NCBI RefSeq assembly: GCF_000564855.1
Contig: NZ_AYXG01000118.1
Coordinates: forward strand, 1-51,663
Length of the DNA stretch: 51,663 nucleotides
Direction: 5' to 3'
From: Actinokineospora spheciospongiae
GTDB lineage: Bacteria; Actinomycetota; Actinomycetes; Mycobacteriales; Pseudonocardiaceae
Made by a program: the position numbers and the translations under genes. Shown in pieces: positions 9,799-51,570 of the stretch. Numbering within the stretch: the first letter of the stretch is position 1; the number at the start of each line of letters is the position of its first letter. The notes beneath the pieces are model-generated. The model saw only the letters and a list, made by a program, of their open reading frames with translations. It was not told the DNA's origin and did no database searches.

Positions 9799-9800
9799 GG

Positions 9801-11703: not shown

Positions 11704-11738
11704 CTTCGCGTTCCATTCGGAGAGGGAGTCGGGAACGC

Positions 11739-13897: not shown

Positions 13898-13944
13898 CGT
13901 GAGGTCCGACCGGGGGTGACCGGTTCCCGGCCACCCCAGGACGC

Positions 13945-13983
13945 GGTGGTGCCCGGTCGGCGCACGGCCGACCGGGCACCACC
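13945..13983. terminator. Bidirectional terminator
   Basis: Perfect 16-bp stem (13945-13960 with 13968-13983), 7-base loop, between the lectin gene and the convergent SRPBCC-hydrolase gene. Confidence 0.85.
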
Positions 13984-14001
13984 ACCCGGCGAGGGCTCTG
14001 C

Positions 14002-15294: not shown

Positions 15295-15352
15295 CGTGTG
15301 CCTCCCTTGAGCAGAAGGGTGAGTGCCTCCTTTCGGGGAGGCGGGGAACGGG

Positions 15353-15381
15353 GTCGGGGGCGCGGTGACCGCGCCCCCGAC
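15353..15381 (-). terminator. Hairpin between FAD oxidase and SRPBCC-hydrolase genes
   Basis: Perfect 13-bp GC-rich stem (15353-15365 with 15369-15381), 3-base loop, 8 bases past the FAD-oxidase stop. A second small stem (GCCTCC 15325-15330, GGAGGC 15337-15342) follows before the next start. Confidence 0.7.
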
Positions 15382-15388
15382 ACTGGGA

Positions 15389-16903: not shown

Positions 16904-16917
16904 GTCCCCTGTTCCCC

Positions 16918-18480: not shown

Positions 18481-18493
18481 GGCAGACCAGTCC

Positions 18494-30120: not shown

Positions 30121-30758
30121 GCCCCGGACCTCCGCGCCGGGCGCCACATCGGGCGCAGCACCGGGCCGTCGGGCAGCCGGATCTCCGTGCCCAGCGGCGC
30201 GAACCCGTTGCGCAGGCTCACCGCGTACCCGCCGGGGGAGCTGGCCTCGACGTAGGTGGGCACACCCTCGGCGTCGGCGCGGGCGACCAGCAGGCCCAGC
30301 ATCCCGGTCATCCACCCGCCCTGCTGCTCGCCGGGGCGCACCGCGCCGAAGGAGGCGTAGTACTGCGGTTCCTCCGACGGGTGGTGCGCGGCCTGCATCG
30401 CCAGGATGGTGAACAGCGCCGCGGTGCCGGAACCGACGGCCTCGGCGAGCCTGCGCTGCACGTCCTCGTCGCGCTCCTGCGCCTCCTCCCACCCGGCGGG
30501 GGACAGGTACAGCAGCGCCGCGGCGAAGTCCCCGCCGACCCCACCGACCAAGACCCCGCCGTGCGCCAGCGACAGGTCGACGAAGACCCGGAAGAACGCG
30601 GGCAGCGCCGCCGCCCGTTCGACCGGGTCGGGCAGAATCCACGCGGTCAGCGGGTCGTCCTGGAACGCCTCGGCCAGCAGTCCGCACAACCGGTCGGTGT
30701 CCTCCGGCCCGCCGGGCCGGATCGTCCGCGCCGCGGTCGCGGGCTCGGTGTAGGTCAT
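30117..30758 (-). CDS. GNAT-family N-acetyltransferase
   Basis: 213 residues. A GNAT fold is suggested by an N-terminal R-P-G-G-P-E-D strand, a central beta-bulge, the R-P-G-E-Q-Q-G-G-W acyl-CoA loop and the C-terminal S-L-R-N-G-F-A-P-L-G element. It probably acylates an amine, for example that made by the adjacent decarboxylase. I chose ATG 30758, which has a good GGAG-type site. ATG 30800, overlapping the decarboxylase stop as ATGA, would add 14 residues and is equally possible. Confidence 0.78.
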   Translation of the reverse strand: MTYTEPATAARTIRPGGPEDTDRLCGLLAEAFQDDPLTAWILPDPVERAAALPAFFRVFVDLSLAHGGVLVGGVGGDFAAALLYLSPAGWEEAQERDEDVQRRLAEAVGSGTAALFTILAMQAAHHPSEEPQYYASFGAVRPGEQQGGWMTGMLGLLVARADAEGVPTYVEASSPGGYAVSLRNGFAPLGTEIRLPDGPVLRPMWRPARRSGA

Positions 30759-30796: not shown

Positions 30797-32197
30797 TCAT
30801 GGGGCCGGGGCCGCGAGCGCGCGGACCCGGTCGTGCAACCGGTCGAGGTGGTCCTCGGCCTCGGGTTTGATCAGCACGCTGCGCGCGATCCGGGCGGGTT
30901 CGCCGGGGCGCGCGGCGATGTCGGGGTGGCGGGCGCGCAGGTCGGCGCCGTCGACCCGGAGCACGCTGAGGTACACCGGGTCGTCGGCGGCCATGCCGTC
31001 GCGCAGCAGCCGGTCGGCCGCCGCGTCCACGGTGGTCGCGTCGGCGGGGGTGGGTTCCGGGAAGAAGGTGACGATGTCCAGCTCGGGCCGCTGGTACAGG
31101 CGCAGCTCGGTGCTCGCCTCGATCCGGTCGGCCCAGCCGGTGGCCGCGCGCCTGCACGCGGCCAGGATCTCGCCGAAACCACCGCGGTCCAACGGGAGCA
31201 GCCGCGTGGTTAGCCACAGCGCCGCCGCGGCGGCACCGGCCCGGGAGCACTCCAGGCTGATCTCGCCCAGGTGCAGGTCGCTGTCGGTGAAGTAGGTGTA
31301 GGGCGAGTCGTGCGCGAAGTGCCTGCCGATGCCGGGGTCGGCGAAGAGCACCGCGCCGCAGCCGTAGGGTTGCAGGCCGTGCTTGTGCGGGTCGACCACC
31401 ACCGAGTCCACCCCGGCGATCGCCCGGAACGGGCGGCCGTCAATCTCACCGGAGTCCTTCAACAGCGCGTAGAAACCGCCGTACGCGGCGTCCACGTGCA
31501 CCCGCACGCCGTACTCCCTGGCGATGGGCAGGACCTCGTGCACCGGGTCGACCGCGCCCAGACCGGTGGTCCCGGTCGTGAGCACGATCGTCCCGATCCG
31601 CCCGCCCGCCATCGCCTCCCGCGCCGCCTCGACGTCCAGGCGGCCGAGGTCGTCCACCGGCAGCCGGTGGCCCTCGACGCCCAGCACGTGGCACATCCGC
31701 TGGTGGGTGTAGTGGCACTCGCCGCTGTAGGCGATCCCCTTGCCCGGGTGCGCCTGGCGGGCGACGTAGAGCGCCTCCAGGTTGGCGATGGTGCCGCTGG
31801 TGGTCAGGTGCCCGACGTGCCGGGGCAGCCCGAACATCGCCGCGAGGTCGGCCACGACCTCCTTCTCCATCGCGGTGGTGGCCGGACCGCCCTCGGCGGC
31901 GTGGTTGTTGGGGTTGTGCAGCATCGCGGTCACGTAGCCCACGACCGCCGCCGGGTGCGGCGGCTTGACCATCTGACCCGCGTAGCGCGGGTGGAAGAAC
32001 GGGTAGTTGTCGGTCATCCGGGCCGCGAACACCTCGAACGCCTCGGCGAAGGCGGACTCGTCGACCCGGTTCGCGGGGTGCGCGGTGAACGGGCCGAACC
32101 GCTCGCCCCACGCGGCCACCACCTCGACCGCCCGCGGCAGCCAGTGGCGCAGGTCCACGCCGCTGCCGAGGGCGGGCCGCAGGTCGGTCGCGGTCAC
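30797..32197 (-). CDS. PLP-dependent group II amino acid decarboxylase
   Basis: 466 residues, DDC/glutamate-decarboxylase family. PLP Lys in D-P-H-K-H-G; HVDAAYGGFY holds the Asp that contacts the PLP nitrogen; TTSGTIANLEAL lies near the phosphate site. It should decarboxylate an aromatic or other amino acid to an amine. The GTG start at 32197 overlaps the monooxygenase stop by 4 bases; the GNAT gene follows at once, suggesting decarboxylation then acylation. Some family members instead run amine-oxidising aldehyde synthesis, so the outcome is not certain. Confidence 0.87.
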   Translation of the reverse strand: MTATDLRPALGSGVDLRHWLPRAVEVVAAWGERFGPFTAHPANRVDESAFAEAFEVFAARMTDNYPFFHPRYAGQMVKPPHPAAVVGYVTAMLHNPNNHAAEGGPATTAMEKEVVADLAAMFGLPRHVGHLTTSGTIANLEALYVARQAHPGKGIAYSGECHYTHQRMCHVLGVEGHRLPVDDLGRLDVEAAREAMAGGRIGTIVLTTGTTGLGAVDPVHEVLPIAREYGVRVHVDAAYGGFYALLKDSGEIDGRPFRAIAGVDSVVVDPHKHGLQPYGCGAVLFADPGIGRHFAHDSPYTYFTDSDLHLGEISLECSRAGAAAAALWLTTRLLPLDRGGFGEILAACRRAATGWADRIEASTELRLYQRPELDIVTFFPEPTPADATTVDAAADRLLRDGMAADDPVYLSVLRVDGADLRARHPDIAARPGEPARIARSVLIKPEAEDHLDRLHDRVRALAAPAP

Positions 32198-33762
32198 CGC
32201 GGGCCGGTGCCGGTGCTCCGGGCACCCACCACCGGGGTCGCCACGCCGGTGGTCGCGGTGTACGCGGTGAGGTCGACCTTCTTCGTCTGCTTGAGGAAGC
32301 GCCACGAGTAGGTCGGGAACACCGACGGGTTGGTCTCGTGCTCGCCGATGTACCAGCTCTGGCAGCCGCCCGGCGCCCACACGGTGCCGTCGAAGCGCTC
32401 CTGGAGCCTGGTGTTGTAGGCCGTCTGCGCCTCGGGCTTGACCTCCAGGGTGGACAGGCCGCGCTTGTCCATCGCCTTGAGCGCGTCGAGGGTGTGGTTG
32501 ATGCCGCCCTCGATGGTCAGGGTGACCGAGGAGTGCGCCAGCACGGTGTTCGGGCCCAGGATCAGGAACAGGTTCGGGAAGCCCGCGACGGTGGAGCCGA
32601 CGTAGGCGGTCATGCCTTCCTCCGCCCACGTCTGGGCCAGCGAAACCCCGCCGCGACCGCGGATGCGGTGGGCGATGGGGCGGTCGGTGGCGGAGAACCC
32701 GGTGGCGGCGACGATCACGTCGACCTCGCGGCGGGTGCCGTCGGCGGTCACCACGGTGTTGCCCTCGACCCGGGTGATGCCGTCGGTGACCAGCTCGACG
32801 TTGTCCTTCTCCAGCGTCGGGTACCAGTCGTTGGAGAACAGCATCCGCTTGCAGCCCACGGTGAAGTCCGGGGTGAGCCGGGCGCGCAGGGCCTCGTCCT
32901 TGACGTTCTTCCTGAGGTTCTTCTCCGCCATTCCCTGGAGGGTCTTGGTGGCGGCCTTCGGGCGGGCCAACCAGAACGCGACGATCTCGCGACCCCACTT
33001 GTTGAAACCCCGGCGGAACTTCTGGTAGCCGGGCACACCGCGGCGCAGCGCCAACTGGAGCTTGCCGATCACCTTGTCGTTCTTCGGCAGCACCCAGCCG
33101 GGCGTGCGCTGGTGCACGTGGAGCTGCCCCACCTCGGGCTGGATCGCCGGGACGATCTGGATGGCCGAGGAACCGGTGCCGATCACCGCGACCCGCTTGC
33201 CCCTGAGGTCGACGTCGTGGTTCCAGTTCGAGGAGTGGAACAGCTCGCCGGTGAAGGAGTCGAGACCGTCGATGTCGGGCAGCTTCGCGTCGCTGAGGTA
33301 GCCCGCGCCCGCCACCAGGACCTGCGCGGTGAAGGCGCGGCCCCCGGCTTGGACGTGCCAGCGGCCCTCGCGCTCGTCCCACTCCGCGCCGGTGACCTCG
33401 TGGTCGAACAGGATGTGCTCGCGCACCCCGTACCTCGCCGTGCAGTCCTTGAGGTAGGCCAGCAGCTCGTCGCGGGTGGCGAAGGTCGTCTTCCACTCGG
33501 TGTTCGGCGCGAAGGAGAACGAGTAGAGCAGCGACATGATGTCCCCGGCGCAACCGGGGTAGGAGTTGTCCCGCCAGGTGCCGCCGACCTCGCCCGCGCG
33601 CTCGAAGACGACGAAGTCGTCGATCCCCTGCTGCTTGAGGCGGATCGCCGTGCCCAGGCCGGAGAAGCCGGTGCCGATGACCGCGACCCGGAAGTGCGGG
33701 GTCGGCGCGCCCTGGCTGTCCGCGGGCGGTTCGACGCGCCCGGGATTGATGGTGCTCGTCAT
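32194..33762 (-). CDS. Type I Baeyer-Villiger monooxygenase 2
   Basis: 522 residues, same architecture as the enzyme at 16918-18480 and clearly paralogous: GTGFSG FAD motif, EVGGTWRDNSYPG, second Rossmann VIGTGSS. The family fingerprint reads F-x-G-x-x-x-H-x-x-x-W-N, so the last position is Asn, not Pro/Asp. ATG 33762 lies just downstream of a SARP-type promoter. First gene of the six-gene operon. Two such enzymes in one cluster suggest two oxygen insertions or two substrates. Confidence 0.85.
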   Translation of the reverse strand: MTSTINPGRVEPPADSQGAPTPHFRVAVIGTGFSGLGTAIRLKQQGIDDFVVFERAGEVGGTWRDNSYPGCAGDIMSLLYSFSFAPNTEWKTTFATRDELLAYLKDCTARYGVREHILFDHEVTGAEWDEREGRWHVQAGGRAFTAQVLVAGAGYLSDAKLPDIDGLDSFTGELFHSSNWNHDVDLRGKRVAVIGTGSSAIQIVPAIQPEVGQLHVHQRTPGWVLPKNDKVIGKLQLALRRGVPGYQKFRRGFNKWGREIVAFWLARPKAATKTLQGMAEKNLRKNVKDEALRARLTPDFTVGCKRMLFSNDWYPTLEKDNVELVTDGITRVEGNTVVTADGTRREVDVIVAATGFSATDRPIAHRIRGRGGVSLAQTWAEEGMTAYVGSTVAGFPNLFLILGPNTVLAHSSVTLTIEGGINHTLDALKAMDKRGLSTLEVKPEAQTAYNTRLQERFDGTVWAPGGCQSWYIGEHETNPSVFPTYSWRFLKQTKKVDLTAYTATTGVATPVVGARSTGTGPR

Positions 33763-40049: not shown

Positions 40050-43000
40050 CTACGCGTACCTGCGGACCCCGAGGCTCGCCAGGGTCCAGCTCGCCTCCGT
40101 GCGCAGGGCCTCCGCGCACCGGCGGTCGCCGATCTGGTTGCGGTTCTCCAACGCCTGCGCCAACGCGTGCTGGGCCACCGCCATCCACGGCCGCGCCCGG
40201 CGGGCCGAGAGCTGTGACAGCGCCGAGGACAGGTGGCGCTCGGCCTCGTCCCACTCGCCGATGACCACCGCCAGCCTGCCCAGGTGGAACGACGAGGTGC
40301 CGACGAAGCTGCGGTAGCCGACGCCGCAGGTCAGGTCGGTGTGGGGGGTGAGCAGGGCGCGGACGGCCTCCGCCGTGTTGGGGTCGCCCAGTTCCACCGC
40401 GCACAGCGCCAGCACGCCGACCATGTGCGGCCACTCGTCGCCGGTGGGGAGGGCTTCGGCGCCGATGGCGAGGGCGCGGACGGTGAGGTGGGCGGCGCCC
40501 CGGTCGCCGCGCAGGATTGCCGCGAGGGCGCGTTCGGCGCTGCCGGGGGTGGTGGTGGCCTCGTCGACCCGGCCGCCGTTGACCAGCCAGCGGGCGATGA
40601 GCATCTGGCGCTGGGCCAGGCCGCCGGGGGCGAGTTGGCGGGCGGTGGCCGCCGCGTCGGTGAGCCTGCCCTGGGTGACCGCGAGGGCGACCGCGTGTTC
40701 GGCCAGCAGGTCCTCGCCGTCGTCGTCGCTGTCGGCGATGGCCGCGGCCAGGGCGGCCAGGGCGGTGTCGCGCCCGGTGAGGTCGCCGGTGAGGTCGGCG
40801 GTGGCGGCGCGGTGGTGCGCGGCGACGACCCTGGCGCCGGTGTCGCCCACGGCCTCGGCGACGGTGAGCGCCTCGGCGGCCAGCGTGGCCCGCCAGGTGA
40901 GGTGGTCTGGACCTTCCAGCAGGCGCAGTTCCCCCGTCATCGCGTGCAGTGCCCTGGTGACCGACGGGTCGGCGGTGACCCGGGTCAGGTCGCACTGCCG
41001 CGCCAGGAGCCTGCCCACCGTGACGTCGTCGACGGTGCCGCCGACGCTGGGGCCCTCGCCCCGGGACAGGGTGCGCAGCAGCAGGTCGATCAGGGCGGCG
41101 GCCTCCGGGCGCAGCCGGGGGCGGGTGCGCACCGCGTCGGCCAGGCCCAGGGCGGCCTGCGCGGCGATGGTGAGCCGGTGCCAGTGCAGGGCCTGGATGA
41201 AACCGTCGAGCAGGGTCTGGTCGCAGTCGCGGTGGCCCGCTGCCAACTGGGCCAGGCCCAGGCGGGTCAGGGCGTCGGCGTGCAGCTCGTTGTCGGCGGC
41301 CGGGACGTGGGCGAGGGCCTGCTCGAACAGGCGCACCGCCTCGTTCGGCGAACCCTGGCGGCCTGCCCAGGCCGCGGCGTGCCAGCTCGCCTGGACGGTG
41401 CGGGTGTCGCCGTCGGCCTCGGCGCTGGCGGCGCGGTGGTGGGCCAGGGCGCGGCTCTGCAAGCCGAGGTCGCCGGTGCGCCTGCGCTCGATGGCGTCGG
41501 CGAAGCGGGCGTGCAGCCACCGGCGCCGGGTCTCGCTGAGCTGCTCGTAGACCGCGCGGCGCACCACGTCGTGCTTGTAGCGGTACTTGGTGACCGGGCG
41601 GGAGCCGTAGCCGGTGGCGATCACCTCGGCCACCAGGCCCAGCTCCACCAGCACGTCCAGGGCGTCCATCGCCTCGTCCTGGTCGTGCCCGGCGGCGTCG
41701 GCGGCCAGGTCCAGCTCGAAGGCGAAGCCCGCCACGGCCGCGGCGCGCAGGAACCGGCGCGGACCGGGTTCGAGCGCGGCCAGGCACGCCTCGGCGTAGT
41801 CGTGCACCCCCGAGGGCAGCCGCCGCCCCGGCTCGGCGGGGCCCTCCTGGTACCAGCGCAGCAGTTCCACGGTCAGGTAGGCGTTGCCAGCGGTGTCGGC
41901 GATCAGCCGGTACGGCGGCGGCACGTCGGCGCCCGCCGCGGTGGGGACCAGCTTGCGCGACAGCGCCCGCACGTCCGACTCGTCCAGGCCCGCCAACGGG
42001 ACCCGGCGCAGCTTGCCGTACCGGTCGGCCTCCTGCACGAACTCGGCGAACGCCGCGCCGACCCGCGCGTCGGCCCGGCCCGCGGCCCGGCTGCCCGCGG
42101 TGGCCAGCAGCAGCACCGAGCCGTTCGTGGCCTCCGCCGCGCCCGCGGCCCGGTTGAGCGCCACCCGGCGCAGCACCGCAAAGGTGCCCTCGTCGGCCAG
42201 GTCCAGGTCGTCGACGACCAGGCACAGCGACTCCTGCCCGAGCGCGCCCAGCAGGTCGGCCAGCGCGGTGACCGCCTCGCCGCGGCGCGCGCCGAACCCC
42301 GGGTCGGCGGCCAGGGCGGCCAGCGTCTCGCGCGGGCCGGGCGGCAGCACCGGCAGCGAGTCCGGCGGGGTGGCCGCGACGTATTCGGCCAGCGCCTGGG
42401 TGATCGGCTGGAACGCGGTGGCGGCCCCGGGCTGGCAGCGGCCGTAGACGACCAGCCCGCCGTCGCGGCCGATCCGCCCGGCGGCCTCGGTGGCCAGCCG
42501 GGTCTTGCCGACCCCGGGTTCGCCGGTGACCAGGGCCAGGTGGCAGTCGCCGTCCTCGGCGCGCGACCAGGACTCGGCCAGCGCGGCCAGTTCCCCGCGC
42601 CTGCCGCTGAACGGCACGGCCGCGCCGGGGGCCGAGCGGGCCCGGTCGCGGCCGACGCGCACGCCGAGCAGTTCCACGTAGGCCGACTGGGTCTCCGGGG
42701 ACGGGTCGATGCCCAGCTCGTCGGCCAGCACCTGGCGCAGCCGCTGGTAGGCGCGCAGCGCCTCGGCGCGGTCGCCGCCGGTGCTGTGCGCGGTCATCAG
42801 GCAGCGGTGCGCGCCCTCGCTCAGCGGGGAGCGGCGCACGGCCTCCTCGGCCAGCCGCACCGCTTCCCGGTCGTCGCGCTCGGCCGCGGCGGCGGTGCTG
42901 GCCGCCTGCAACGCGGTCTGCAGCAGACCGTCCACGTGGTCGCGGACGCCCTGCACCCACTCGCCCTCGTGGTGCGGCAGGAACGGCTCGCGCAGGTGCT

Positions 43001-43412
43001 CCAGCGCGGACTGGGCCAGCCTGCGCGCCTCGGTGTGCGCGCCGTCGCCGAGCGCGCGGACCGCCTCGCCGACCGCCCGCTCGGCCAGCTCGACGTCGAC
43101 CTCGGCGGTGTCGGGGAGCTTGAGCACGTAGCGGCGGCCCTGGGCGACGAGCGGCGGTTCGCCGGTCTCGGTCGGCCCGACGGTGCCCGCCATGAACGCG
43201 CGCACCCGGCTCATCAGGCTGCGCAGAGCCGAGGCCCAGGTGTCGGGCAGCCCCTCGGGCCACACGGTGTCGGCGAGCTGGTCGCGCTCGGTGCCGCCCG
43301 CCCGCTCCATGATCAGCCGGGCGAAGGCGACCTGCGCCTGGGCGCTGGACATGTGCCGGGGCTGCCCGTCGTCGCCGGTGACCGACACCAGTCCGATGAG
43401 CCTGATCAGCAT
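40050..43412 (-). CDS. Large SARP-family regulator (winged helix-BTAD-ATPase-TPR, AfsR-like)
   Basis: 1120 residues. An OmpR-type winged helix (about 1-98), a bacterial transcriptional activation domain (about 100-250), an NTPase domain with intact Walker A GEPGVGKT (297-304) and Walker B-like LCLVVDDLDLAD, then a long TPR-like helical part. SARPs activate antibiotic clusters by binding direct repeats 11 bp apart just upstream of -10. ATG 43412 has GGAG ahead; a near-consensus promoter is at 43501-43528. It is the only SARP in the window and the obvious candidate to act on the five repeat-bearing promoters described here. Confidence 0.92.
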   Translation of the reverse strand: MLIRLIGLVSVTGDDGQPRHMSSAQAQVAFARLIMERAGGTERDQLADTVWPEGLPDTWASALRSLMSRVRAFMAGTVGPTETGEPPLVAQGRRYVLKLPDTAEVDVELAERAVGEAVRALGDGAHTEARRLAQSALEHLREPFLPHHEGEWVQGVRDHVDGLLQTALQAASTAAAAERDDREAVRLAEEAVRRSPLSEGAHRCLMTAHSTGGDRAEALRAYQRLRQVLADELGIDPSPETQSAYVELLGVRVGRDRARSAPGAAVPFSGRRGELAALAESWSRAEDGDCHLALVTGEPGVGKTRLATEAAGRIGRDGGLVVYGRCQPGAATAFQPITQALAEYVAATPPDSLPVLPPGPRETLAALAADPGFGARRGEAVTALADLLGALGQESLCLVVDDLDLADEGTFAVLRRVALNRAAGAAEATNGSVLLLATAGSRAAGRADARVGAAFAEFVQEADRYGKLRRVPLAGLDESDVRALSRKLVPTAAGADVPPPYRLIADTAGNAYLTVELLRWYQEGPAEPGRRLPSGVHDYAEACLAALEPGPRRFLRAAAVAGFAFELDLAADAAGHDQDEAMDALDVLVELGLVAEVIATGYGSRPVTKYRYKHDVVRRAVYEQLSETRRRWLHARFADAIERRRTGDLGLQSRALAHHRAASAEADGDTRTVQASWHAAAWAGRQGSPNEAVRLFEQALAHVPAADNELHADALTRLGLAQLAAGHRDCDQTLLDGFIQALHWHRLTIAAQAALGLADAVRTRPRLRPEAAALIDLLLRTLSRGEGPSVGGTVDDVTVGRLLARQCDLTRVTADPSVTRALHAMTGELRLLEGPDHLTWRATLAAEALTVAEAVGDTGARVVAAHHRAATADLTGDLTGRDTALAALAAAIADSDDDGEDLLAEHAVALAVTQGRLTDAAATARQLAPGGLAQRQMLIARWLVNGGRVDEATTTPGSAERALAAILRGDRGAAHLTVRALAIGAEALPTGDEWPHMVGVLALCAVELGDPNTAEAVRALLTPHTDLTCGVGYRSFVGTSSFHLGRLAVVIGEWDEAERHLSSALSQLSARRARPWMAVAQHALAQALENRNQIGDRRCAEALRTEASWTLASLGVRRYA

Positions 43413-43500
43413 GACCGCACTCCTCGGTGGTCTCGCCACTCCACGATTGTCCGTCGAATTCGCTCCGCGCCGAAATCGGTTCCGGATTCGCGGAGGAACC

Positions 43501-43528
43501 ATACAACCGGGCGGGATTGGCGTGTCAA
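43501..43528 (-). promoter_or_regulatory. Promoter of the SARP gene
   Basis: Minus strand TTGACA (43528-43523), 16-base spacer, TTGTAT (43506-43501), 88 bases before the ATG. It has consensus -35 sequence and no GTTGCG pair, so it need not depend on the SARP itself. Confidence 0.65.
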
Positions 43529-43589
43529 GTGTTGCCCCTGATGTCGTGTCGACTCTGGAACATCGACTGGGCGAACACCTCGTTAATGG

Positions 43590-43606
43590 CCCGCCACAAT
43601 GGCGGG
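43590..43606. repeat. Inverted repeat in the SARP/MaoC intergenic region
   Basis: CCCGCCA (43590-43596), CAA, TGGCGGG (43600-43606): a perfect 7-bp inverted repeat in the 555-base divergent gap, possibly an operator. No gene is supported in the gap. Confidence 0.45.
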
Positions 43607-43770
43607 ATGGAGTACCGCGTTGCGCCGAACAGTCGAACTGGCGAGACGCGGTCCCGTTTCGCGATCTTCCCTCGCCCTGGCACCGCTGCCTCGAAGGGGT
43701 CCGTCGTGGACGGTGTGCACCCGGTGTGAGCACCCATGTTCCAGCGTCTCACCCCGGGGGGCGGGCGCGT

Positions 43771-43967: not shown

Positions 43968-44900
43968 GTGAGCACAGTCGCCGCCCGGCCGGGCGAGGCA
44001 GCCGCGGGTCGGCACGCGGACCGGTACGCCACCACGGACATGCGGGTGGTCACCGCCGCCGAGATCAGCGACTTCCGCGGCCTGCTGCGCACCGCCATCG
44101 AGGCCAGGGCCGCGGCCGGGACGCCCAAGGCGTCGCCGGTGCACCCGTTCCTGCTCTCCTCGAACACCTACGAGCAGCTCGTCGGCCAGCTCACCCCGGC
44201 CGAGGGGCCGCGCCCGACCGCGGTGCACCTGGGCCAGCAACTGTGGCTGCGCGGCCTGGTCAAGCCGGGGGAGCGGGTGGCCATCGACCTGGAGGTGCTG
44301 GCCGCCCGGCGCGAACCGCGCGGGGTGCGGCTGGCCATCCGGTGCGTGCTGGTCGGCGGCGACGGGGCCACGCTCTCGGAGCTGCGCACCGCGGTCCTGC
44401 TGGTCGGGGCGACCGAGCCCGCGGCCTTCGGCGTGATGCCGGTGGCCGTGGTCCGCGACGCGGAGCCGGACCCGGGGCCGGTCGAGTCGACCGCGGTGAC
44501 CTGCGTGGTCACCCGGGAGACCGTCGACCGGTTCGCGGCCACCACCGGCGAGCGCAACCCGGTGCACAGCGACGACGGGGCCGCGGTCGCCGCCGGGTTC
44601 CCCGGCCGGGTGGTGCAGGGGATGTGCCTGGTGGCGCTGATCGTCGAGGACGTCATCGACCGGTTCGCGGGCGGTGACGCGGAGCGCATCGCCGGGGTGG
44701 GGGCGCGCTTCACCGCGCCCGCGTTCCCGGACGAGGCGCTGGAGATCTTGTACACCACCACCGAGAGCGGACCGCTCGTCGGCTTCACGTGCGCCTCGGC
44801 GCGCGGCCCGGTGGTCAAGGGCGGATGGGTGCGGATCACCGCCGAAGGAGGCGAGAGCGATGACAACCACGATCACCACGACAGCGGCACCGCTGCCTGA
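43968..44900 (+). CDS. MaoC-type hot-dog protein 2 with altered catalytic motif
   Basis: 310 residues, two hot-dog halves like the protein at 22066-22857. The hydratase motif reads G-E-R-N-P-V-H-S-D (about 194-202): His200 is kept, the usual Asp is Glu195, and VQGM replaces AHGM. Hydratase, dehydratase or thioesterase activity is possible. GTG start with GAGGAGA ahead. First gene of the trp-like operon; its 3' end overlaps the ligase gene by 41 bases. About 25 extra N-terminal residues have no counterpart in the first MaoC. Confidence 0.8.
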   Translation: MSTVAARPGEAAAGRHADRYATTDMRVVTAAEISDFRGLLRTAIEARAAAGTPKASPVHPFLLSSNTYEQLVGQLTPAEGPRPTAVHLGQQLWLRGLVKPGERVAIDLEVLAARREPRGVRLAIRCVLVGGDGATLSELRTAVLLVGATEPAAFGVMPVAVVRDAEPDPGPVESTAVTCVVTRETVDRFAATTGERNPVHSDDGAAVAAGFPGRVVQGMCLVALIVEDVIDRFAGGDAERIAGVGARFTAPAFPDEALEILYTTTESGPLVGFTCASARGPVVKGGWVRITAEGGESDDNHDHHDSGTAA

Positions 44901-46389
44901 GCCGGTCCTCCCGCACGACGGGCTGGTCGCCGGGTTCCTGCGCCAGGCCGAGAGCCGCCCGGACGCGGTGGCCCTGGTCTGGCACGACACCCGGATCGAC
45001 TACGGCGACCTGTACGACCTGGTGTGCGTCGAGCGCGACCGCATCGACGGCCTGGGCCTGGCCCCCGGTGTCCCGGTGGGGCTGCTGGCGGACAAGTCGC
45101 CGGAGGCGGTGGCGCTGGCGCTGGCCTGCCTGCTGGCCGGGCGGCCGTTCCTGCTGCCGTCCCCGGCGCTGGCCGACGGCGCGCTGGCCACCCTGTTCGC
45201 CCAGGCCGGGTGCGCCAGGGTGCTGGTCCCGCAGGGCCAGCCGCGGCGCGAGCTGCCCGCCCCGGCCGCGTTCGCCGCGGTGGAGCCCGCGCCCGCCGAC
45301 ACCGCGCTGATGCTGACCACCTCCGGTTCGACCGGGCTGCCGAAGGTCGTGCCGCTCTCGGGCGGCGCGGTGGACCGGTTCATCGCCTGGGCCGCCCCGG
45401 AGTTCGGCATCGGCCCGGGCACCGCGGTGCTCAACGTGGCGCCGCTCAACTTCGACCTGTGCCTGCTGGACGTGTGGACCACGCTGGCCGCGGGCGGGCG
45501 GGTCGTGCTGGTGGACCCGGCGCACGCCGCCAACGGCAGGCACCTGGTGGAGCTGCTGTCCACCCAGGACGTGCGGGTCGTGCAGGCGGTGCCGATGTTC
45601 TTCGGCCTCATCCTGCAAACCGTGGCCGATACCGACACCGCGTTCCCCTCGGTGGAGCACCTGATGTTCACCGGTGACGCGATGCCCGCGCACGTGCTCG
45701 CCGAGCTGCCCCGGTTGTTCCCCGGGGCCAGGCTGCGCAACATCTACGGCTGCACCGAGACCAACGACAGCTTCATCGCCGACGTCGCCCCGACCGACAA
45801 CCCCGTCCCGATCGGACACCCGCTGCCCGGTGTGCAGGCGTTGCTGGTCGACGATGGCGCGGTCGTGGACGGTCCCGGCACCGGGGAGCTGTTCGTGCAC
45901 ACGCCCTTCCAGACGGCGGGGTACCTCGACCGCTCCCGGCACGCCGACAAGTTCGGCGCGCACCCCACCGGCGCCGACGACCTGCGCTGGTTCCGCACCG
46001 GCGACCTGGTCCGCCGCGCCCCCGACGGCAGCCTGCTGCTCCTGGGCCGCGCCGACTTCCAGGTGAAGGTGCGCGGCGTCGCCGTCAACACCGCCGAGGT
46101 GGAGCGGGCGCTGCTGGCGCACCCGGACGTGCTGGAGGCCGCGGTGCTCGCGGTGCCGGACCCGGTCGCGGGCAGGCTGCTCGCCGCCGCGGTGCGCCGG
46201 GCGCCCGGCAGCGGCCTCAACAGCCTGACCCTGCGCGCGCACTGCTCACGGGAGCTGCCGCGCAACGCCATCCCGAAGACGTTGCACATCAGCGACGTCC
46301 CCCTGCCGAAGACGGCAACAGGCAAGGTCGACCGAAAGGCGGTCGGCACGCTCACCGAGCAATCCACAGTGGAGAGAAGGGTGTCATGA
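44860..46389 (+). CDS. Stand-alone AMP-forming ligase (adenylation domain) for carrier loading
   Basis: 509 residues. A3 LTTSGSTGLPK, A5 YGCTET, A7 FRTGDLV, A8 FQVKVRGVAVN and A10 TGKVDRK are intact, so it should activate a carboxylic or amino acid as AMP ester and load the carrier encoded immediately downstream. The A4 segment is unusual (NFDLCLLDVW). Pocket residues read by eye are D-L-L-Q-M-T-I-D-S-K. The D-L-L start recalls prolyl ligases of pyrrole pathways but the rest does not. ATG 44860 has GAAGGAGG ahead, inside the MaoC gene. Confidence 0.87.
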   Translation: MTTTITTTAAPLPEPVLPHDGLVAGFLRQAESRPDAVALVWHDTRIDYGDLYDLVCVERDRIDGLGLAPGVPVGLLADKSPEAVALALACLLAGRPFLLPSPALADGALATLFAQAGCARVLVPQGQPRRELPAPAAFAAVEPAPADTALMLTTSGSTGLPKVVPLSGGAVDRFIAWAAPEFGIGPGTAVLNVAPLNFDLCLLDVWTTLAAGGRVVLVDPAHAANGRHLVELLSTQDVRVVQAVPMFFGLILQTVADTDTAFPSVEHLMFTGDAMPAHVLAELPRLFPGARLRNIYGCTETNDSFIADVAPTDNPVPIGHPLPGVQALLVDDGAVVDGPGTGELFVHTPFQTAGYLDRSRHADKFGAHPTGADDLRWFRTGDLVRRAPDGSLLLLGRADFQVKVRGVAVNTAEVERALLAHPDVLEAAVLAVPDPVAGRLLAAAVRRAPGSGLNSLTLRAHCSRELPRNAIPKTLHISDVPLPKTATGKVDRKAVGTLTEQSTVERRVS

Positions 46390-46649
46390 GCAACGTCGAC
46401 ACGATCAAGTCGTTCATCATCGAGGAGTTCCTGCCGGACGTGGAGCCCGCCGCGCTGGCGGTCGACTACGACCTGCTGGCCAACGGCGTCATCGACAGCC
46501 TGGGCCTGCTCAAGCTGATCGCCTGGATCGAGGACCGCTTCGGCGCCCCGATCGCCGACGACGACCTCGACCCGGACAACTTCCGCAGCGTCACCGCCAT
46601 CGACACCTTCGTCGCCCGCGTGACCGCGGGTGCGGTGACCGGGAGCTGA
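46386..46649 (+). CDS. Free-standing carrier protein (PCP/ACP)
   Basis: 87 residues, helical, with G-V-I-D-S-L-G and attachment Ser38. ATGA overlap with the ligase gene argues that the ligase loads it. Probable substrate carrier for the acyl-CoA-dehydrogenase-like enzyme encoded later in the operon. Confidence 0.9.
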   Translation: MSNVDTIKSFIIEEFLPDVEPAALAVDYDLLANGVIDSLGLLKLIAWIEDRFGAPIADDDLDPDNFRSVTAIDTFVARVTAGAVTGS

Positions 46650-46650
46650 C

Positions 46651-47676
46651 ATGGACCAGGTGATCGCCGCCCTGCTGCGCGGCGGGGACGCGGCCGGGGG
46701 GATCGACCTGCCCGCCTGGCGGGCGCTGTGGGACCGGCTGGAGAGCGGCGCCCTCGACCGCGCCGAGGTCTCCGCGCTGCTGGCGACGCTGTCGACCCGC
46801 CTCCCGGCCCCGGCCCCGCTGGAGGCCCTGGTGGTCTCGCTGCGGGAGCGGCGGTCCGGTCCGGAGCACCCGGCCTGGCCGGGTGCGGTCAACATCGTCG
46901 GCACCGGTGGTGGGCCCCGCACGTTCAACGTCTCCACCGCCGCGGCGTTCGTCGCCGCGGCGATGGGGGTGCCGGTGGTGAAGACCGGGTCGCGCGCCCA
47001 CACCGGCTCCGTCGGGTCGATCGACCTGCTCGACCGGCTGGGGGTGCGGCTGACCCGCTCGGTGCCCGACACCGAGGACGCCCTGGGGGAGCACGGGATC
47101 GCCTTCGCGGGCCCGTTCGTCTACCCGGCCACGCTGACCAGGATGGCCCGCGCGCTGCTCCCGCTGGGGCTCAAGCCCTTCGGGCGGTTCCTCAACGCGC
47201 TCGGGCCGTTCCTGGCCGCGGTGCCGGTCTCCGCCCAGGTGACCGGGGTGTCCTCGGCCGCCCCGCTGGAGCCGCTGCGCCACCTGGCCGCGACCGCGAC
47301 CGACCGCACGGTCTGGTTGTGCGCCAACGACTTCGGCTGCGACGAACTCCTCGGCTTCGCCCACAACGTCGTCCACACCGGCGGTGACCCCGTCACCCTG
47401 TCGCCGGGCGACCTGGCCCCCGGGCACGGCTCGCTCGACGACCTGGCCGAGGCGCACCCCGACAGCCTCGTCCCGCACTTCCTGGACGTGCTCTCCGGCC
47501 GCGGCACCACCGCGGCCACCGAGGCCGTGTGCCTCAACGCCGCCGCGCTGGCGATGGCCGGTGGTCACGCCGCAACGTGGCCCGGGGCTTTCGCCGCCGC
47601 GACCGAAGCCGTGCACGGCGGTGCCGTGGTGGCCCTGGTCGACCGGGTGCGCGCGAAGGCGGTGGCCCGTGGCTAG
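46651..47676 (+). CDS. TrpD-like (anthranilate phosphoribosyltransferase family) enzyme, divergent
   Basis: 341 residues with the TrpD fold order: N-terminal helical domain, GTGGGPRTFNVST (84-96), KTGSRAHTGSVGS (111-123) and a C-terminal ATEAVCLNAAAL helix. In true TrpD these read GTGGDxxxTFNIST and KHGNR.., and an NxxHPA segment contacts anthranilate. Here Asp is Gly, His-Gly-Asn is Thr-Gly-Ser, and the HPA region is FVYPATL. PRPP may still be used, but anthranilate as acceptor is doubtful. It starts 1 base after the carrier gene and overlaps the TrpA-like gene by 8 bases. Confidence 0.85.
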   Translation: MDQVIAALLRGGDAAGGIDLPAWRALWDRLESGALDRAEVSALLATLSTRLPAPAPLEALVVSLRERRSGPEHPAWPGAVNIVGTGGGPRTFNVSTAAAFVAAAMGVPVVKTGSRAHTGSVGSIDLLDRLGVRLTRSVPDTEDALGEHGIAFAGPFVYPATLTRMARALLPLGLKPFGRFLNALGPFLAAVPVSAQVTGVSSAAPLEPLRHLAATATDRTVWLCANDFGCDELLGFAHNVVHTGGDPVTLSPGDLAPGHGSLDDLAEAHPDSLVPHFLDVLSGRGTTAATEAVCLNAAALAMAGGHAATWPGAFAAATEAVHGGAVVALVDRVRAKAVARG

Positions 47677-48496
47677 GTTCTTCGACCAGCTCACCCCGGA
47701 CCGCCCCGGGCTCGCGCTGTTCCTCAACGCCGGTGACCCGCCGCTGGACGTGCTGGCCGAGCTGCTGCCCGCGCTGGACGAGATCGGCGTGGACTGCCTG
47801 GAGCTGGCCGTGCCGTTCCCCGGTTCGGTCACCGACGGCAAGACCGTCCGCGACTCCGCGGACCGGGCCCTGGCCCAGGGGGTGGACCTGGACGTGACGT
47901 TGGAGTTCGTCGCGCGGGTCCGCCCCACCCTCAAGCGGCTCCGGATCGCCCTGCTGGCGGACTGGAGCCACTCCCTCAAGCGCCGGTCACTGGCAGCGGT
48001 GGCCGGGGAAGTGGTCGACAGCGGTGTCGACGGATTGCTGGTCCACGGCCTGCCACCGCGTCTGCGGGCCGAGTACCACCGGGTGACGACCGAAGCGCAG
48101 CTCCCGATCGTCACCACCTGCTACCACGGGGTCAGCACCCCCGAGGTGCAGCGGGAAGCCGCCGCGCACGCGACGGCCTACCTGTACCTGGTGGCCCACT
48201 ACGGGCGCAGCGGGACCGCGCCCGCGGCGGGCTACGCCGAACTGGCGGACACCGTGGTCCGCCTGAACGCGACGGCCACCGCGCCGATCGCGGTCGGCTT
48301 CGGCGTCAAGACGCGGCACGACGTCGAAGCGGTGCACCGGATCGGAGCCAACGCCGCAATCGTTGGCTCCGCCGGCGTCGGGGTGGTCGAGCGCGCCCTG
48401 CACAGGCGCACGGACCTGGTCGCCGAGTTCGGCGACTTCGCCCGCTCCCTCCTCCACCCCATCCACTACCCCCTCGCATCAGGGAGCACACCATGA
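47669..48496 (+). CDS. TrpA-like (tryptophan synthase alpha / indole-3-glycerol-phosphate lyase fold)
   Basis: 275 residues, TIM barrel. E45 in CLELAVPF and D56 in TDGKTV align with the catalytic Glu49 and Asp60 of TrpA; GFGVKTRHDV and IVGSA fit the phosphate-binding end. The retro-aldol step releasing glyceraldehyde 3-phosphate therefore looks possible. No TrpB is encoded, so it would act alone, like BX1 or TSG of plants, giving a free heterocycle. GTG 47669 lies inside the TrpD-like gene; the stop overlaps the EctC-like gene. Confidence 0.85.
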   Translation: MARFFDQLTPDRPGLALFLNAGDPPLDVLAELLPALDEIGVDCLELAVPFPGSVTDGKTVRDSADRALAQGVDLDVTLEFVARVRPTLKRLRIALLADWSHSLKRRSLAAVAGEVVDSGVDGLLVHGLPPRLRAEYHRVTTEAQLPIVTTCYHGVSTPEVQREAAAHATAYLYLVAHYGRSGTAPAAGYAELADTVVRLNATATAPIAVGFGVKTRHDVEAVHRIGANAAIVGSAGVGVVERALHRRTDLVAEFGDFARSLLHPIHYPLASGSTP

Positions 48497-48867
48497 TCAT
48501 CCGTGATCTCGGCACCGTCAAGACCGTCGACTGGGGCAACGGCACCAGCGCCCGCCTGCTCGTCGCGGCCGACGGCCTGGGTTACACCGTCTGCGACACC
48601 GTCGTCACCGCCGGGTCCAAGTCCAAGCTCCAGTACCGCAACCACCTGGAGGCCTGCTACTGCATCGGCGGCTCCGGCGAGGTGCAGGACATGGACGGCA
48701 ACTCCTTCCCGATCACCCCGGGCGTGCTCTACGCGCTCAACGAGCACGACGAGCACTGGCTCATCGCGAGCCCGGACGAGGACCTGCACCTGGTCTCGGT
48801 GTTCACCCCCGCCCTGCGCGGCGACGAGGTGCACAGCCTCGACGGCTCCGGCGCCTCCGCGTACTGA
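48493..48867 (+). CDS. Ectoine-synthase (EctC)-like cupin
   Basis: 124 residues, close in length and layout to EctC: H-L-E-A-C-Y-C-I-G-G-S-G-E-V, I-T-P-G-V-L-Y-A-L-N-E-H-D-E-H, V-F-T-P. Residues matching the Glu, Tyr and His iron ligands are present (E53, Y80, H88). EctC closes a ring by water loss between an N-acetyl group and an amine. There is no ectA, ectB or ectD, so it is probably recruited for a different cyclodehydration in this pathway. ATGA overlap with the TrpA-like gene. Confidence 0.87.
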   Translation: MIIRDLGTVKTVDWGNGTSARLLVAADGLGYTVCDTVVTAGSKSKLQYRNHLEACYCIGGSGEVQDMDGNSFPITPGVLYALNEHDEHWLIASPDEDLHLVSVFTPALRGDEVHSLDGSGASAY

Positions 48868-48942
48868 GCCCGTTCCCCGCTGGGCGGTTCCCCGCCCCGC
48901 CGCACCGGTGATCCCACACAAGACCAGGAAGGGCGTTTCGCC

Positions 48943-50082
48943 GTGATCGAGTGGACCGCTGATCAGGAAGACCTGCGCGCGGGCATCGCGCGCTGGTGCG
49001 AGGCATTCAGCGCCGACCATGTCGAGCGCGACGAGGAGGGCACCTTCTCCTGGGAGAAGTGGAAGCTGGTGCGGCGGGCGGGGCTGCTCGCGCTGCCGTT
49101 CGACGAGCGGTGGGGCGGCGACGGCCTCGACCTCATCACCGTCATGGGTGTGCTGGAAGCGCTCGGCGAGGGCAACCGCGACGCGGGCCTGACGTTCTCC
49201 GTGACCACCAGCATGTGCAGCACGGGCATCCCGCTGGAGGCCTTCGGGTCGCAGGCCCTCAAGGACCGGTACCTGCCCCTGATCACCTCGGGCGAGGCGA
49301 TCGGGGCGCACGCCATCACCGAGCCGTCGGGCGGGTCGGACGCGCTGAACATGCGCACCACCGCCCGCCGCGAGGGCGACGAGTTCGTCCTCAACGGCAG
49401 CAAGACCTTCGTCAGCAACGGCCCGGTCGCCGACCTGTTCGTGGTGTACGCGCTGACCCGCCCCGGCGCGGGCGCGCTCGGCACCACCGCGTTCCTCCTC
49501 CGCCGCGACACCCCCGGGCTGGTCGTCGGCAAGCCGATGAAGAAGATGGGCCTGCGCACCTCCCCGCTCTCGGAGCTGTTCTTCGACGACTGCCGGGTGC
49601 CCGCCGACCACGTCATCGGCCGGGTCGGCGCCGGGTTCATGGTGCTCGACCACGTGATGAAGCGGGAGATCCTGTTCTCCTTCATCACCAACGTCGGCGA
49701 GATGGCCCACCGGCTCGACCGGTGCGTGGCCTACGCCAAGGAGCGTACGGCGTTCGGCCGGCCGATCGGGTCCTACCAGGCGATCCAGCACAAGCTCGTC
49801 GACATGAAGATCAAGCTCGACACCGCGCGCAAGTGGCTCTACGACGTGGCCGAGCTGCTGGTCGCGGGCAAGAGCGTCACCACCGAGATGGCCATCGCCA
49901 AGCTGCTCACCAGCGAGGCGAACCTGGCGTCGAGCCTGGCCGCGGTGCAGGTCTTCGGCGGGCACGGCTACATGGCCGAGACCGGCCTGGAGAAGGACGT
50001 GCGCAACGCCGTCGCCGGGACCATCTACTCCGGGTCCACCGAGACCCAGTACAACCGCATCGCGTCGATGATGGGCCTGTGA
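48943..50082 (+). CDS. Acyl-CoA-dehydrogenase-like flavoprotein 2 (carrier-substrate type)
   Basis: 379 residues, full ACAD fold: HAITEPSGGSD (123-133), LNGSKTFVSNG (150-160), AFGRPIG. The C-terminal motif is IYSGSTETQ, so the medium-chain type Glu is Ser. Glu242 (KREILF) sits 30 residues before AFG, as in isovaleryl-CoA dehydrogenase and carrier-directed relatives. With a ligase and free carrier in the operon it resembles the ligase-carrier-dehydrogenase trio (RedM/RedO/RedW) that oxidises prolyl thioester to pyrrole. The actual substrate is unknown. GTG start 75 bases after the EctC-like gene, with GGAAGGG ahead. Confidence 0.85.
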   Translation: MIEWTADQEDLRAGIARWCEAFSADHVERDEEGTFSWEKWKLVRRAGLLALPFDERWGGDGLDLITVMGVLEALGEGNRDAGLTFSVTTSMCSTGIPLEAFGSQALKDRYLPLITSGEAIGAHAITEPSGGSDALNMRTTARREGDEFVLNGSKTFVSNGPVADLFVVYALTRPGAGALGTTAFLLRRDTPGLVVGKPMKKMGLRTSPLSELFFDDCRVPADHVIGRVGAGFMVLDHVMKREILFSFITNVGEMAHRLDRCVAYAKERTAFGRPIGSYQAIQHKLVDMKIKLDTARKWLYDVAELLVAGKSVTTEMAIAKLLTSEANLASSLAAVQVFGGHGYMAETGLEKDVRNAVAGTIYSGSTETQYNRIASMMGL

Positions 50083-50083
50083 G

Positions 50084-50851
50084 GTGACCGTGCGCTCCCT
50101 GCTGAACCCCCTGTTGAAGGTCTGCGGCGCGACCGCGGAAGCCGACATCGACCTGCTCGCCGCCGGTGGGGTCAACCTCGTCGGCCTCTGGCACGGCGTC
50201 CCCGGCGGCCCGGCCGAGCTGCCCCTCGACCGGCTCGCCGACCTGGCCGCCGCCGCCCGCTCGACCGGGCGGCTGCGGCCGGTGCTGGTGACCTTCCTGG
50301 CCGACGCCGACGCGATCGCCGACGCCATGGAGCACTCCGGCATCGAGTGGGTGCAACTGCACGCCTACCAGCCGCCCGCGCTGGTGAAGGCCCTGCGGCA
50401 GCGCAGGCCCGGGGCGCACATCCTCAAGGTGCTGCACGTCGCCGACGGGCAGTGCGTGGAGAAGCGGCTCATCCCCGCCTACGAGCGCGCCGGGGTCGAC
50501 ACGTTCCTGCTCGACCGGGTCGGGCTCAACGGCCAGGTCGGCAGCACCGGGCTGCGACTGGCCGAGTCCGACGTGGTCGACCTGGTGGCGGGCATGACGA
50601 TCCCGTTCGTCCTCGCGGGCGGGATCGACGCCGACAGCCGCCCGTCCTACCCGCGGCTCTCGGTGCACCCCGGGATGCTCGGCGTGGACGTCGACACCGC
50701 CGCCAGAGGCGGCGACGGCCGGTTCGACCGGCACGCCGTGGCCGCGCTCACCGCCTCCTGGGGCGGCGAGCCGGAAACGGAGGTCCTGGAGTTGACGGTG
50801 CCGACGGCGCGGCCGGTCGTGGTCGGCCAGGAAGGGGCGGTGGCACCGTGA
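50084..50851 (+). CDS. TrpF-like (phosphoribosylanthranilate isomerase fold) enzyme, divergent
   Basis: 255 residues. L-K-V-C-G-A-T near the N-terminus keeps the catalytic Cys (14), VQLHAYQ matches VQLHG, FLLDR the Asp strand, and LAGGID the phosphate end, so Amadori isomerisation is plausible. The S-x-R segment after strand 2, usual in TrpF, is replaced by a Pro/Gly-rich loop. A C-terminal extension of about 30 residues is unassigned. It overlaps the TrpC-like gene by 4 bases. Confidence 0.85.
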   Translation: MTVRSLLNPLLKVCGATAEADIDLLAAGGVNLVGLWHGVPGGPAELPLDRLADLAAAARSTGRLRPVLVTFLADADAIADAMEHSGIEWVQLHAYQPPALVKALRQRRPGAHILKVLHVADGQCVEKRLIPAYERAGVDTFLLDRVGLNGQVGSTGLRLAESDVVDLVAGMTIPFVLAGGIDADSRPSYPRLSVHPGMLGVDVDTAARGGDGRFDRHAVAALTASWGGEPETEVLELTVPTARPVVVGQEGAVAP

Positions 50852-51570
50852 GCGCCTTCGTCGACAGCCTGCTCGCCGGGCGCCCGCTGATCATGGAGGT
50901 CAAGCGGAAGTCCCCGCACGGCGAGGACCTGATGGCCGGGCGGCCGGTCGCCGAGGTCGTCGCCTCCTACGCGGCGGCGGGCGCGTCCTGCGTGTCCGTG
51001 GTGACCGGCCGCTGGTTCGGCGGCACCCCGGAGCTGCTGGCCGAGGTCGCCGCCGCCACCACGCTCCCGGTGCTGCAGAAGGACTTCCTGACCCGCCGCG
51101 ACCACCTGCACCGGGCCCGGGACCTGGGCGCCTCGGCGGTGCTGCTGACCGCCGGGCTGCTCACCCGCTCCAGCCTCACCACCCTGGTCGACGGGGCGCT
51201 GGCACTCGGGCTGACCCCGTTCGTCGAGGTCACCACCGAGGCAGAGGTGGCCGCGCTGCCCCTGGCGGAGCACTGCGTCATCGCGGTCAACAACAAGGAC
51301 ATCAAGACCGGCGAGAAGGACGCGGGCGACCTCGGCCGCAGCGAGCGGATGCTCCCGCACGTGCTCGCCGCGGGCACCCGCTGCCCGGTCAGCGCCAGCG
51401 GCATCGCCGACCCGGCGGTCGCCGCGCACCTGGTGCGCACCGGCTACAGAGGACTCCTGCTCGGCACCTCCCTGCTGCGCGCCGGGAACGTCGCCGACTG
51501 GGTGTCGGAATTCGACACCGCGCTGGGGCGGGTTCCTGCGGCCGAGATCCCCGTCGTGGTGCCCGGGTGA
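50848..51570 (+). CDS. TrpC-like (indole-3-glycerol-phosphate synthase fold) enzyme, divergent
   Basis: 240 residues, shorter than most TrpC (250-270). IMEVKRKSP keeps Glu17 and Lys19, VLQKDF keeps the general-acid Lys78, FVEVTT keeps Glu127, and VNNKD the Asn. SASGI replaces the usual SESGI or AESGI, so one catalytic-site Glu is Ala; VVTGRWFGG replaces VLTE..FFGG. The decarboxylative ring closure may act on a changed substrate. Last gene in the window on this strand; the operon may end here. Confidence 0.85.
   Translation: MSAFVDSLLAGRPLIMEVKRKSPHGEDLMAGRPVAEVVASYAAAGASCVSVVTGRWFGGTPELLAEVAAATTLPVLQKDFLTRRDHLHRARDLGASAVLLTAGLLTRSSLTTLVDGALALGLTPFVEVTTEAEVAALPLAEHCVIAVNNKDIKTGEKDAGDLGRSERMLPHVLAAGTRCPVSASGIADPAVAAHLVRTGYRGLLLGTSLLRAGNVADWVSEFDTALGRVPAAEIPVVVPG

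Follow-up and report, generated by a model that had tools for sequence, protein, structure and literature searches.

The antibiotic kosinostatin (quinocycline B) contains a pyrrolopyrrole ring, which is a bicyclic amidine. Its gene clusters are known as kst in Micromonospora sp. TP-A0468 and ksn in S. albidoflavus. According to PMC7918784, nicotinic acid is loaded and converted to a pyrrole by the kstB group, and this pyrrole is joined with phosphoribosyl pyrophosphate (PRPP) by the kstC group to give the pyrrolopyrrole. For a second producer, the same paper shows a 158 kb region with the antiSMASH label 'T2PKS, ectoine, NRPS, T1PKS, other', and its account of the label leaves the gene behind 'ectoine' unnamed. 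Disruption of the TrpF homologue ksnC3 is reported to abolish kosinostatin (PMC13099267). Here, these systems are compared with a stretch of 51,663 bases (the window), which is the whole of one contig (C117; C, G and L mark our contigs, genomes and loci) in the 7.5 Mb, 262-contig genome of Actinokineospora spheciospongiae. The window shares with the kosinostatin clusters acid loading, tryptophan-type (Trp-type) enzymes and, presumably, the step from pyrrole and PRPP to pyrrolopyrrole. Eight genes of one operon probably constitute a kosinostatin-type cassette, in which a pyrrolopyrrole would be built on or next to a carrier protein and glutamine would enter through an EctC-like cupin. The ring type itself, a kosinostatin-type pyrrolopyrrole, is highly likely.

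Two further groups of described proteins resemble parts of this cassette. The prolyl-carrier pyrrole pathways (PigA/RedW, AnaB) have a ligase, a free carrier and an acyl-CoA dehydrogenase (ACAD). The orphan EctC proteins are cupins whose role is termed unclear in the ectoine literature (PMC6344544; PMC5924519), and EctC is described in the same papers as converting glutamine reversibly, in a side reaction, to the five-membered cyclic amidine ADPC, which resembles proline.

The operon lies on the + strand from approximately 43,968 to 51,570 and stops 93 bases before the contig end. At its head is a MaoC-like protein (43968..44900; Pfam MaoC_dehydratas, 1.5e-15). The eight core genes follow on the same strand in the order AMP ligase, carrier protein, TrpD-, TrpA- and EctC-like, ACAD, TrpF- and TrpC-like. 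The AMP ligase, a stand-alone adenylation enzyme with the pocket code DLLMMTIDSK (44860..46389, start approximate; Pfam AMP-binding, 2.6e-54), reaches 4.6e-71 with TIGR01733 at 239.8 bits, below the cut-off of 317. The free carrier protein (acyl or peptidyl, ACP/PCP; 46386..46649; Pfam PP-binding, 2.1e-05) belongs to a group in which the phosphopantetheine Ser is kept in 35/35 rows. The TrpD-like phosphoribosyltransferase (46651..47676) scores 144.9 bits with TIGR01245, below the trpD cut-off of 199, and the TrpA-like lyase (47669..48496, start approximate) scores 132.5 bits with TIGR00262, above the cut-off of 102. The start of the latter is a GTG at 47669 that was picked by eye and overlaps the TrpD stop. 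Next comes the EctC-like cupin of 124 aa (48493..48867; 141.6 bits with NF009806, above the cut-off of 128), followed by an ACAD of the prolyl-carrier-protein dehydrogenase kind (48943..50082), whose closest solved structure is 4irn (3.3e-86). The TrpF-like isomerase (50084..50851; Pfam PRAI, 5.4e-09) is a weak match that is over the Pfam cut-off (36.5 against 22.7); as a single query it matched no solved structure, and a profile of eight relatives matched PRAI structures, the best at 1.2e-09. The TrpC-like synthase (50848..51570; Pfam IGPS, 3.5e-40) enters the profile at position 47, consistent with an N-terminus shorter than that of canonical IGPS, and scores 141 bits against NCBIfam cut-offs of at least 258. 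A first-pass annotation of this DNA had listed this gene set, and every feature that it named was found where it had been placed. It had also remarked on missing TrpE/G and TrpB. The 39 scanned open reading frames (ORFs) of the window indeed contain no TrpE, TrpG or TrpB family, and whole-genome searches with PF00425 and trpB gave no match on the window contig.

A scan for TrpC relatives yielded 35 loci, and EctC, ACAD, TrpF and TrpC occurred together in 33 of them. The two exceptions were L033, with a TrpC-like gene only, and L038, with an ordinary TrpC. Where upstream genes were missing, the locus begins at a contig end or close to one; the core table of the scan loci omits L001-L003, L033, L038, L039 and matches below 40% identity. 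A pooled set of 43 loci was then formed from the window, 34 loci of the scan (L038 was excluded), six that were fetched and two short pieces. All eight genes were present in 33/43, in one order and on one strand in every case (33/33), and the median spacings across the eight genes were -4, 2, -8, 2, 52, -4 and -4 bases, which is operon-like. A set that is this often complete, with constant order and strand and such tight spacing, is not due to chance. The incomplete loci are ten: L014, L017, L021, L028 and L030 break off at a contig end or close to one, L110 and L111 are the short pieces, L033 has TrpC only, L078 is without EctC and L079 is a remnant. When a TrpF-like profile was run over 397 genomes of the order, 45 genomes were matched at E ≤0.001, and seven of these matches, including that of the window's genome, were strong (5.3e-70 or better).

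A few of the loci seen in these searches hold partial sets. In L033, the TrpC-like gene (10001-10567) is 65% identical to that of the window over residues 2-189 only, with no masked bases and 20 kb free of further cassette genes, and it may be a remnant or a stray. L079/L119 (G310) holds TrpF, a TrpC-like gene and the last quarter of an ACAD, with none of the other core genes found, as in a decayed cassette. A second, more distant TrpF-like group (E of about 4e-18 to 2e-23) occurs in nine of the 397 genomes. Four of its loci, L081-L084 (G007, G293, G228, G196), were fetched and showed no further cassette gene, and two have an AMP-ligase-like match nearby.

The connection with kosinostatin is closest in three of the 43 loci (L075, L076 and L080), in which the KSalpha of a type II polyketide synthase (PKS) lies beside the cassette. 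These loci match the window in all eight genes and in their order, with 46-65% identity gene by gene and essentially the same adenylation code, and they are presumed to be kosinostatin makers. The window differs from a kosinostatin cluster in that no genes for a type II PKS, anthracycline tailoring or an octose were recognised among its 39 scanned ORFs and FabF/MaoC/BioF-type enzymes are found instead. With a KSalpha query, only the FabF-type ketosynthase was matched in the window (35%); the type II PKS found in this genome is on contig C60. Joining the window contig to C60 was considered and rejected, since the PKS genes are internal to C60 (approximately 11.6-14.1 kb of 57 kb) and the window already has its FabF/MaoC/BioF-type partners. 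The window very probably holds the ring-building block of kosinostatin without being a kosinostatin cluster. PF04673 was also tried as a marker of kosinostatin-like loci and was uninformative, as it occurs in 13/21 genomes and in G047 lies about 0.5 Mb from the cassette. The first-pass annotation knew of no described pathway with this gene set; kstB/kstC, as presented in PMC7918784, are such a precedent. Another paper (PMC13055916, on PriA) was set aside as a precedent because the clusters that it concerns are different ones. Since the ring-building logic has been published for kosinostatin, the cassette is not categorically new. No literature description was found, judging mostly by titles and the openings of abstracts, for the FabF/MaoC/BioF pairing, the TrpB2/UbiD variant or the glutamine/EctC entry.

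The Trp-type enzymes were compared residue by residue, with numbers and roles that we take to hold for TrpA, TrpF, TrpC and TrpD. On the sugar side, the catalytic residues are kept: Glu49 and Asp60 of TrpA in 37/38 rows (the remaining row is a gap), Cys7 and Asp126 of TrpF in 40/40, Glu51, Lys53, Lys110 and Glu159 of TrpC in 40/40, and the Asp-Glu motif of TrpD in 36/36. The acceptor side is changed. The KHGNR motif of TrpD reads K[TS]G[SA]R in 36/36, so that both the His and the Asn are replaced. The TrpD Arg that presumably contacts the anthranilate carboxylate falls on one of two neighbouring columns, which hold Arg in 0/36 and 1/36 rows (L076). In TrpC, Glu210 is Ala in 40/40, and the cassette copies are 225-254 aa long (one was called at 336) compared with 269 for the genome's own. 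Both halves of this picture, the kept TrpA Glu and Asp, TrpF Cys and TrpC Lys residues as well as the altered acceptor side, had been proposed from the window and hold across the relatives. The pattern would fit an acceptor amine that has no carboxylate ortho to it, in which case the ring would close without loss of CO2. The release of CO2 at the TrpC step that the first-pass annotation had hypothesised is argued against by the residues lost on the anthranilate side.

The EctC-like cupin belongs to a group in which the iron ligands Glu57, Tyr85 and His93 are kept in 38/38 rows, as expected of an ectoine synthase. Nine other positions were compared, with roles taken from PMC4795551: seven are kept in 38/38, Cys105 in 37/38 (the window has Ser) and the Trp21 column is Gly in 38/38. 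The protein shares with orphan EctC proteins and ectoine synthase a 124 aa cupin with an intact iron site. It differs from ectoine synthase in the Trp21 column and in its neighbours, which are ligase, carrier and Trp-type genes and not ectAB. No EctC of canonical strength was found in 9/21 genomes searched (ectA and ectB were not part of this search), which leaves the cassette kind as the sole EctC there.

Other EctC observations concern single genomes and viral contigs. G399 has three EctC copies of the cassette kind, one of them on a contig without a TrpC match. G410 also has several, and one of them is about 9 kb away from a full-length TrpC with a long branch, counted here as canonical. 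L078 is of the TrpB2/UbiD/transglutaminase type and comes from the window's genus; it is the only otherwise complete-looking cassette without EctC, and a canonical EctC is encoded on a different contig of its genome. In IMG/VR, 28 contigs called viral (L149-L176) encode EctC relatives with 34-48% identity.

The AMP ligase keeps Asp235, which is typical of amino acid activators, in 34/34 rows. With code positions mapped to GrsA by eye, the adenylation code is nearly constant in 29 rows and follows DLLM-x-[TS]-[IVL]-DSK (one reads DLFM) in the window and its relatives, including the type II PKS class, from which the code differs by small hydrophobic swaps. The pocket presumably differs from proline codes. 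The ACAD matches best to PigA, RedW and 4irn, which we take to be AnaB. It has Glu at the IVD/prolyl-type position, assumed here to be that of the catalytic base and taken from the alignment with 4irn, in 39/40 rows (the other is a fragment), and Gly at the MCAD-type position in 40/40. The window ACAD falls below the NCBIfam cut-offs for L-prolyl-carrier dehydrogenases (349.7 against 500 and 347.7 against 650), and the cassette adds EctC and the Trp-type enzymes to what the prolyl-carrier pathways contain.

A pathway can be proposed in which all chemical steps come from homology and residue conservation. The EctC-like cupin would close glutamine, or a glutaminyl-carrier, to ADPC. The AMP ligase would load ADPC on the carrier and so pull an equilibrium that otherwise lies on the glutamine side; the objection from this equilibrium would be eased because loading is ATP-driven. 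The ACAD would then remove two hydrogens to give 5-aminopyrrole-2-carboxyl-carrier, and TrpD would join PRPP to the exocyclic amine, which would stand in for the amine of anthranilate. TrpF would carry out the Amadori step, and TrpC would form the second ring at the unsubstituted ortho carbon with loss of water and not of CO2. Finally, TrpA would remove glyceraldehyde 3-phosphate to leave pyrrolo[2,3-b]pyrrole-2-carboxyl-carrier. Both nitrogens of the bicyclic amidine would come from glutamine. This route uses each cassette gene once and needs no ring contraction; for the glutamine/EctC entry taken by itself, we consider the case evenly balanced. That EctC and ACAD probably help to make the acceptor escaped the first-pass annotation, as did the FabF/MaoC/BioF partners.

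Four Trp-type families in a single operon could point to a duplicated tryptophan or indole pathway that raises the supply of precursors. This is already contradicted, and we give it practically no chance. The genome's own TrpE, TrpC, TrpB and TrpA are on contig C19, a better TrpD match is on C110 and its canonical EctC is on C86; the window copies are 32% (TrpD), 28% (TrpA), 33% (TrpC) and 39% (EctC) identical to them, and the window scan is without TrpE/G and TrpB. A full-length canonical TrpC is also present in 21/21 genomes searched (20 with the cassette and G310 with the remnant), and the TrpD-like protein stays under the trpD cut-off. In a TrpC tree of 64 proteins, the 39 cassette copies are split from 25 canonical ones with 100/100 support, with long branches at the join flagged by the tool (L079 was left out, rows of at least 260 aa were cut to the last 245 and canonical rows are the matched stretches). 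What the cassette shares with the TrpD/F/C/A of tryptophan synthesis is the folds, the sugar-side residues and the presumed step order; it departs from it in the lost acceptor-side residues, the separate TrpC group and the genes missing from the scan. The description of a repurposed set is borne out by the trpE/C/B/A/D genes elsewhere and by the separate group of TrpCs. A genome devoid of other trpD/F/C/A genes, half of what the first-pass annotation had named as speaking against it, is not what was found. The first-pass annotation had the repurposed enzymes act on a free enamine- or amino-acid-type carboxylate, which would take PRPP and cyclise with CO2 loss to a carrier-free pyrrole or indole. 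A ring built from PRPP is still the best reading. The kept sugar-side residues of TrpD/F/C/A agree with the carrier-free version, and the TrpB2 genes in 4/43 loci make a free, C3-unsubstituted ring a possible product. The TrpD and TrpC acceptor-side losses speak against it, and it provides no job for EctC and ACAD, which are present in every complete-region cassette except L078 (without EctC). We regard this version as improbable.

The score and the intact iron site of the EctC-like cupin would also suit an enzyme that makes ectoine. Ectoine is likewise a proline-like cyclic amidine, and the ligase might load this six-membered ring toward a pyrimidine-type product. Here, neither EctA nor EctB was recognised among the 39 scanned ORFs of the window or the annotated neighbours in relatives (ten and eight proteins), nearly half of the genomes searched have no canonical-strength EctC, and such a route would not account for the type II PKS class with its pyrrolopyrrole, which makes it very improbable. 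A different possibility keeps both cassette and pyrrolopyrrole and follows the published precursor: nicotinic acid would be loaded and contracted to a pyrrole while bound, with EctC and ACAD serving this conversion in an unspecified way. It is stated in papers citing the 2013 study (PMC7918784, PMC8400222, PMC5321127), and the essentially identical code in type II PKS-linked loci and the window suggests that the substrate is probably shared. However, the eight core families contain no oxygenase able to open or contract a pyridine, and nicotinate has one nitrogen where the bicycle has two. The conserved Asp235 also contrasts with the code PLPAQGVVNK given in PMC8400222 for a nicotinate-accepting aryl-acid enzyme. 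Moreover, the proposed deformylase KstB7 is described in PMC7918784 as absent from the second producer's cluster, with a homologue nearly 1 Mb away. We consider the nicotinate route unlikely.

Several points weigh against the pyrrolopyrrole cassette with glutamine entry. The main evidence against glutamine is the conflict with the precursors reported for kosinostatin, which PMC8400222 and PMC5321127 cite as being nicotinic acid and ribose. Formation of ADPC by the EctC tested in PMC5924519 is described as very inefficient, with an equilibrium that favors glutamine, and according to PMC4795551 two glutamine molecules condense in this reaction. The Trp21 column of EctC holds a constant Gly in place of Trp; a Trp sits a few residues upstream, and some orphan EctCs are reported to carry a shifted Trp (PMC6344544). 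DLLMMTIDSK matches no substrate that we could name. In L078 (G188), the region 7619-17000 is a complete-looking cassette without an EctC gene. Lastly, the label 'kosinostatin-type' is drawn from architecture and published descriptions, not from the kst sequence JN038178.

The partner genes differ between loci, and their counts are lower bounds, as several loci are short or cut by contig ends. A FabF-type ketosynthase occurs in 25/43 loci (the window and 24 others), with an adjoining MaoC gene in 25/25, and it is found together with a BioF-type synthase in 20/43. In the window, the FabF/MaoC pair lies approximately 22 kb upstream of the operon: a BioF-type alpha-oxoamine synthase (19615..20832, +; TIGR00858, 382 bits, below the cut-off of 426), the FabF-type ketosynthase (20840..22069, +; NF005589, 445.6 bits, above the cut-off) and the MaoC-type dehydratase (22066..22857, +; Pfam MaoC, 9.1e-24). 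These enzymes might use the cassette product as an acyl thioester, which we offer as a tentative guess. TrpB2 and UbiD occur in 4/43 loci (L034, L036, L078, L110), joined in three of these by a transglutaminase-like protein (L110 spans just 3.7 kb). Two of the 43 loci (L016, L032) hold a condensation-domain protein of the nonribosomal peptide synthetase (NRPS) type. The type II PKS contig of G264 has a transglutaminase-like gene (67% to the Lentzea one) and UbiD (57%) about 26 kb from the cassette, along with genes of the cyclase, SnoaL-like and berberine-bridge types. In loci with TrpB2 or a type II PKS, the ring could be set free and decarboxylated by UbiD and the transglutaminase-like hydrolase; neither gene was found in the window.

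The remaining genes of the window are accessory or neighboring. A SARP-like regulator (BTAD + AAA; 40050..43733, -, start codon uncertain; Pfam BTAD, 1.2e-23) is divergent from the operon, and homologues occur in 18/43 loci, often cut by the locus end. Further upstream are a multicopper oxidase (27436..28869, -; assigned by Pfam), found in 15/43 loci, a DUF6875 protein (29458..30687, -; Pfam DUF6875, 3.1e-60) whose true start is probably further in, and a group II decarboxylase dependent on pyridoxal phosphate (30797..32281, -; tyr_de_CO2_Arch (MfnA), 137.7 bits, below the cut-off of 299). The decarboxylase was found in 15/43 loci with a trimmed query, excluding a match in L025 that is a neighbouring gene in the wrong frame, and it is accompanied by the DUF6875 gene in relatives. 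Between 2767 and 19378, the - strand carries scattered NRPS-like pieces. These include two adenylation-carrier proteins (2767-4764 and 9801-13364), hydrolases and, at 6555-7775, a protein that joins an FkbM methyltransferase to a carrier domain. A flavin monooxygenase (16918-18600) adjoins a CMAS-type methyltransferase (18494-19378), and this pair is near the cassette in L025 and L035 too.

The cassette is more widespread than the first-pass annotation could tell, being found in Streptomyces, Kibdelosporangium, Lentzea, Actinoplanes and others. Through it, a broad cluster family for which no description was found is tied to a rare ring known from one antibiotic family. In the wider reading, the orphan EctC is a dedicated glutamine or glutaminyl-carrier cyclase, glutamine gives both nitrogens in kosinostatin too, and four or more assembly logics have the block in common: FabF/MaoC/BioF (the window), type II PKS, TrpB2 with UbiD (a tryptophan analogue) and NRPS. 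We place this reading just short of an even chance. It would offer a function for orphan EctC proteins, and its proposed precursor contradicts the published one. If it is true, the cassette would be a transferable unit for making fused pyrroles and analogues of tryptophan.

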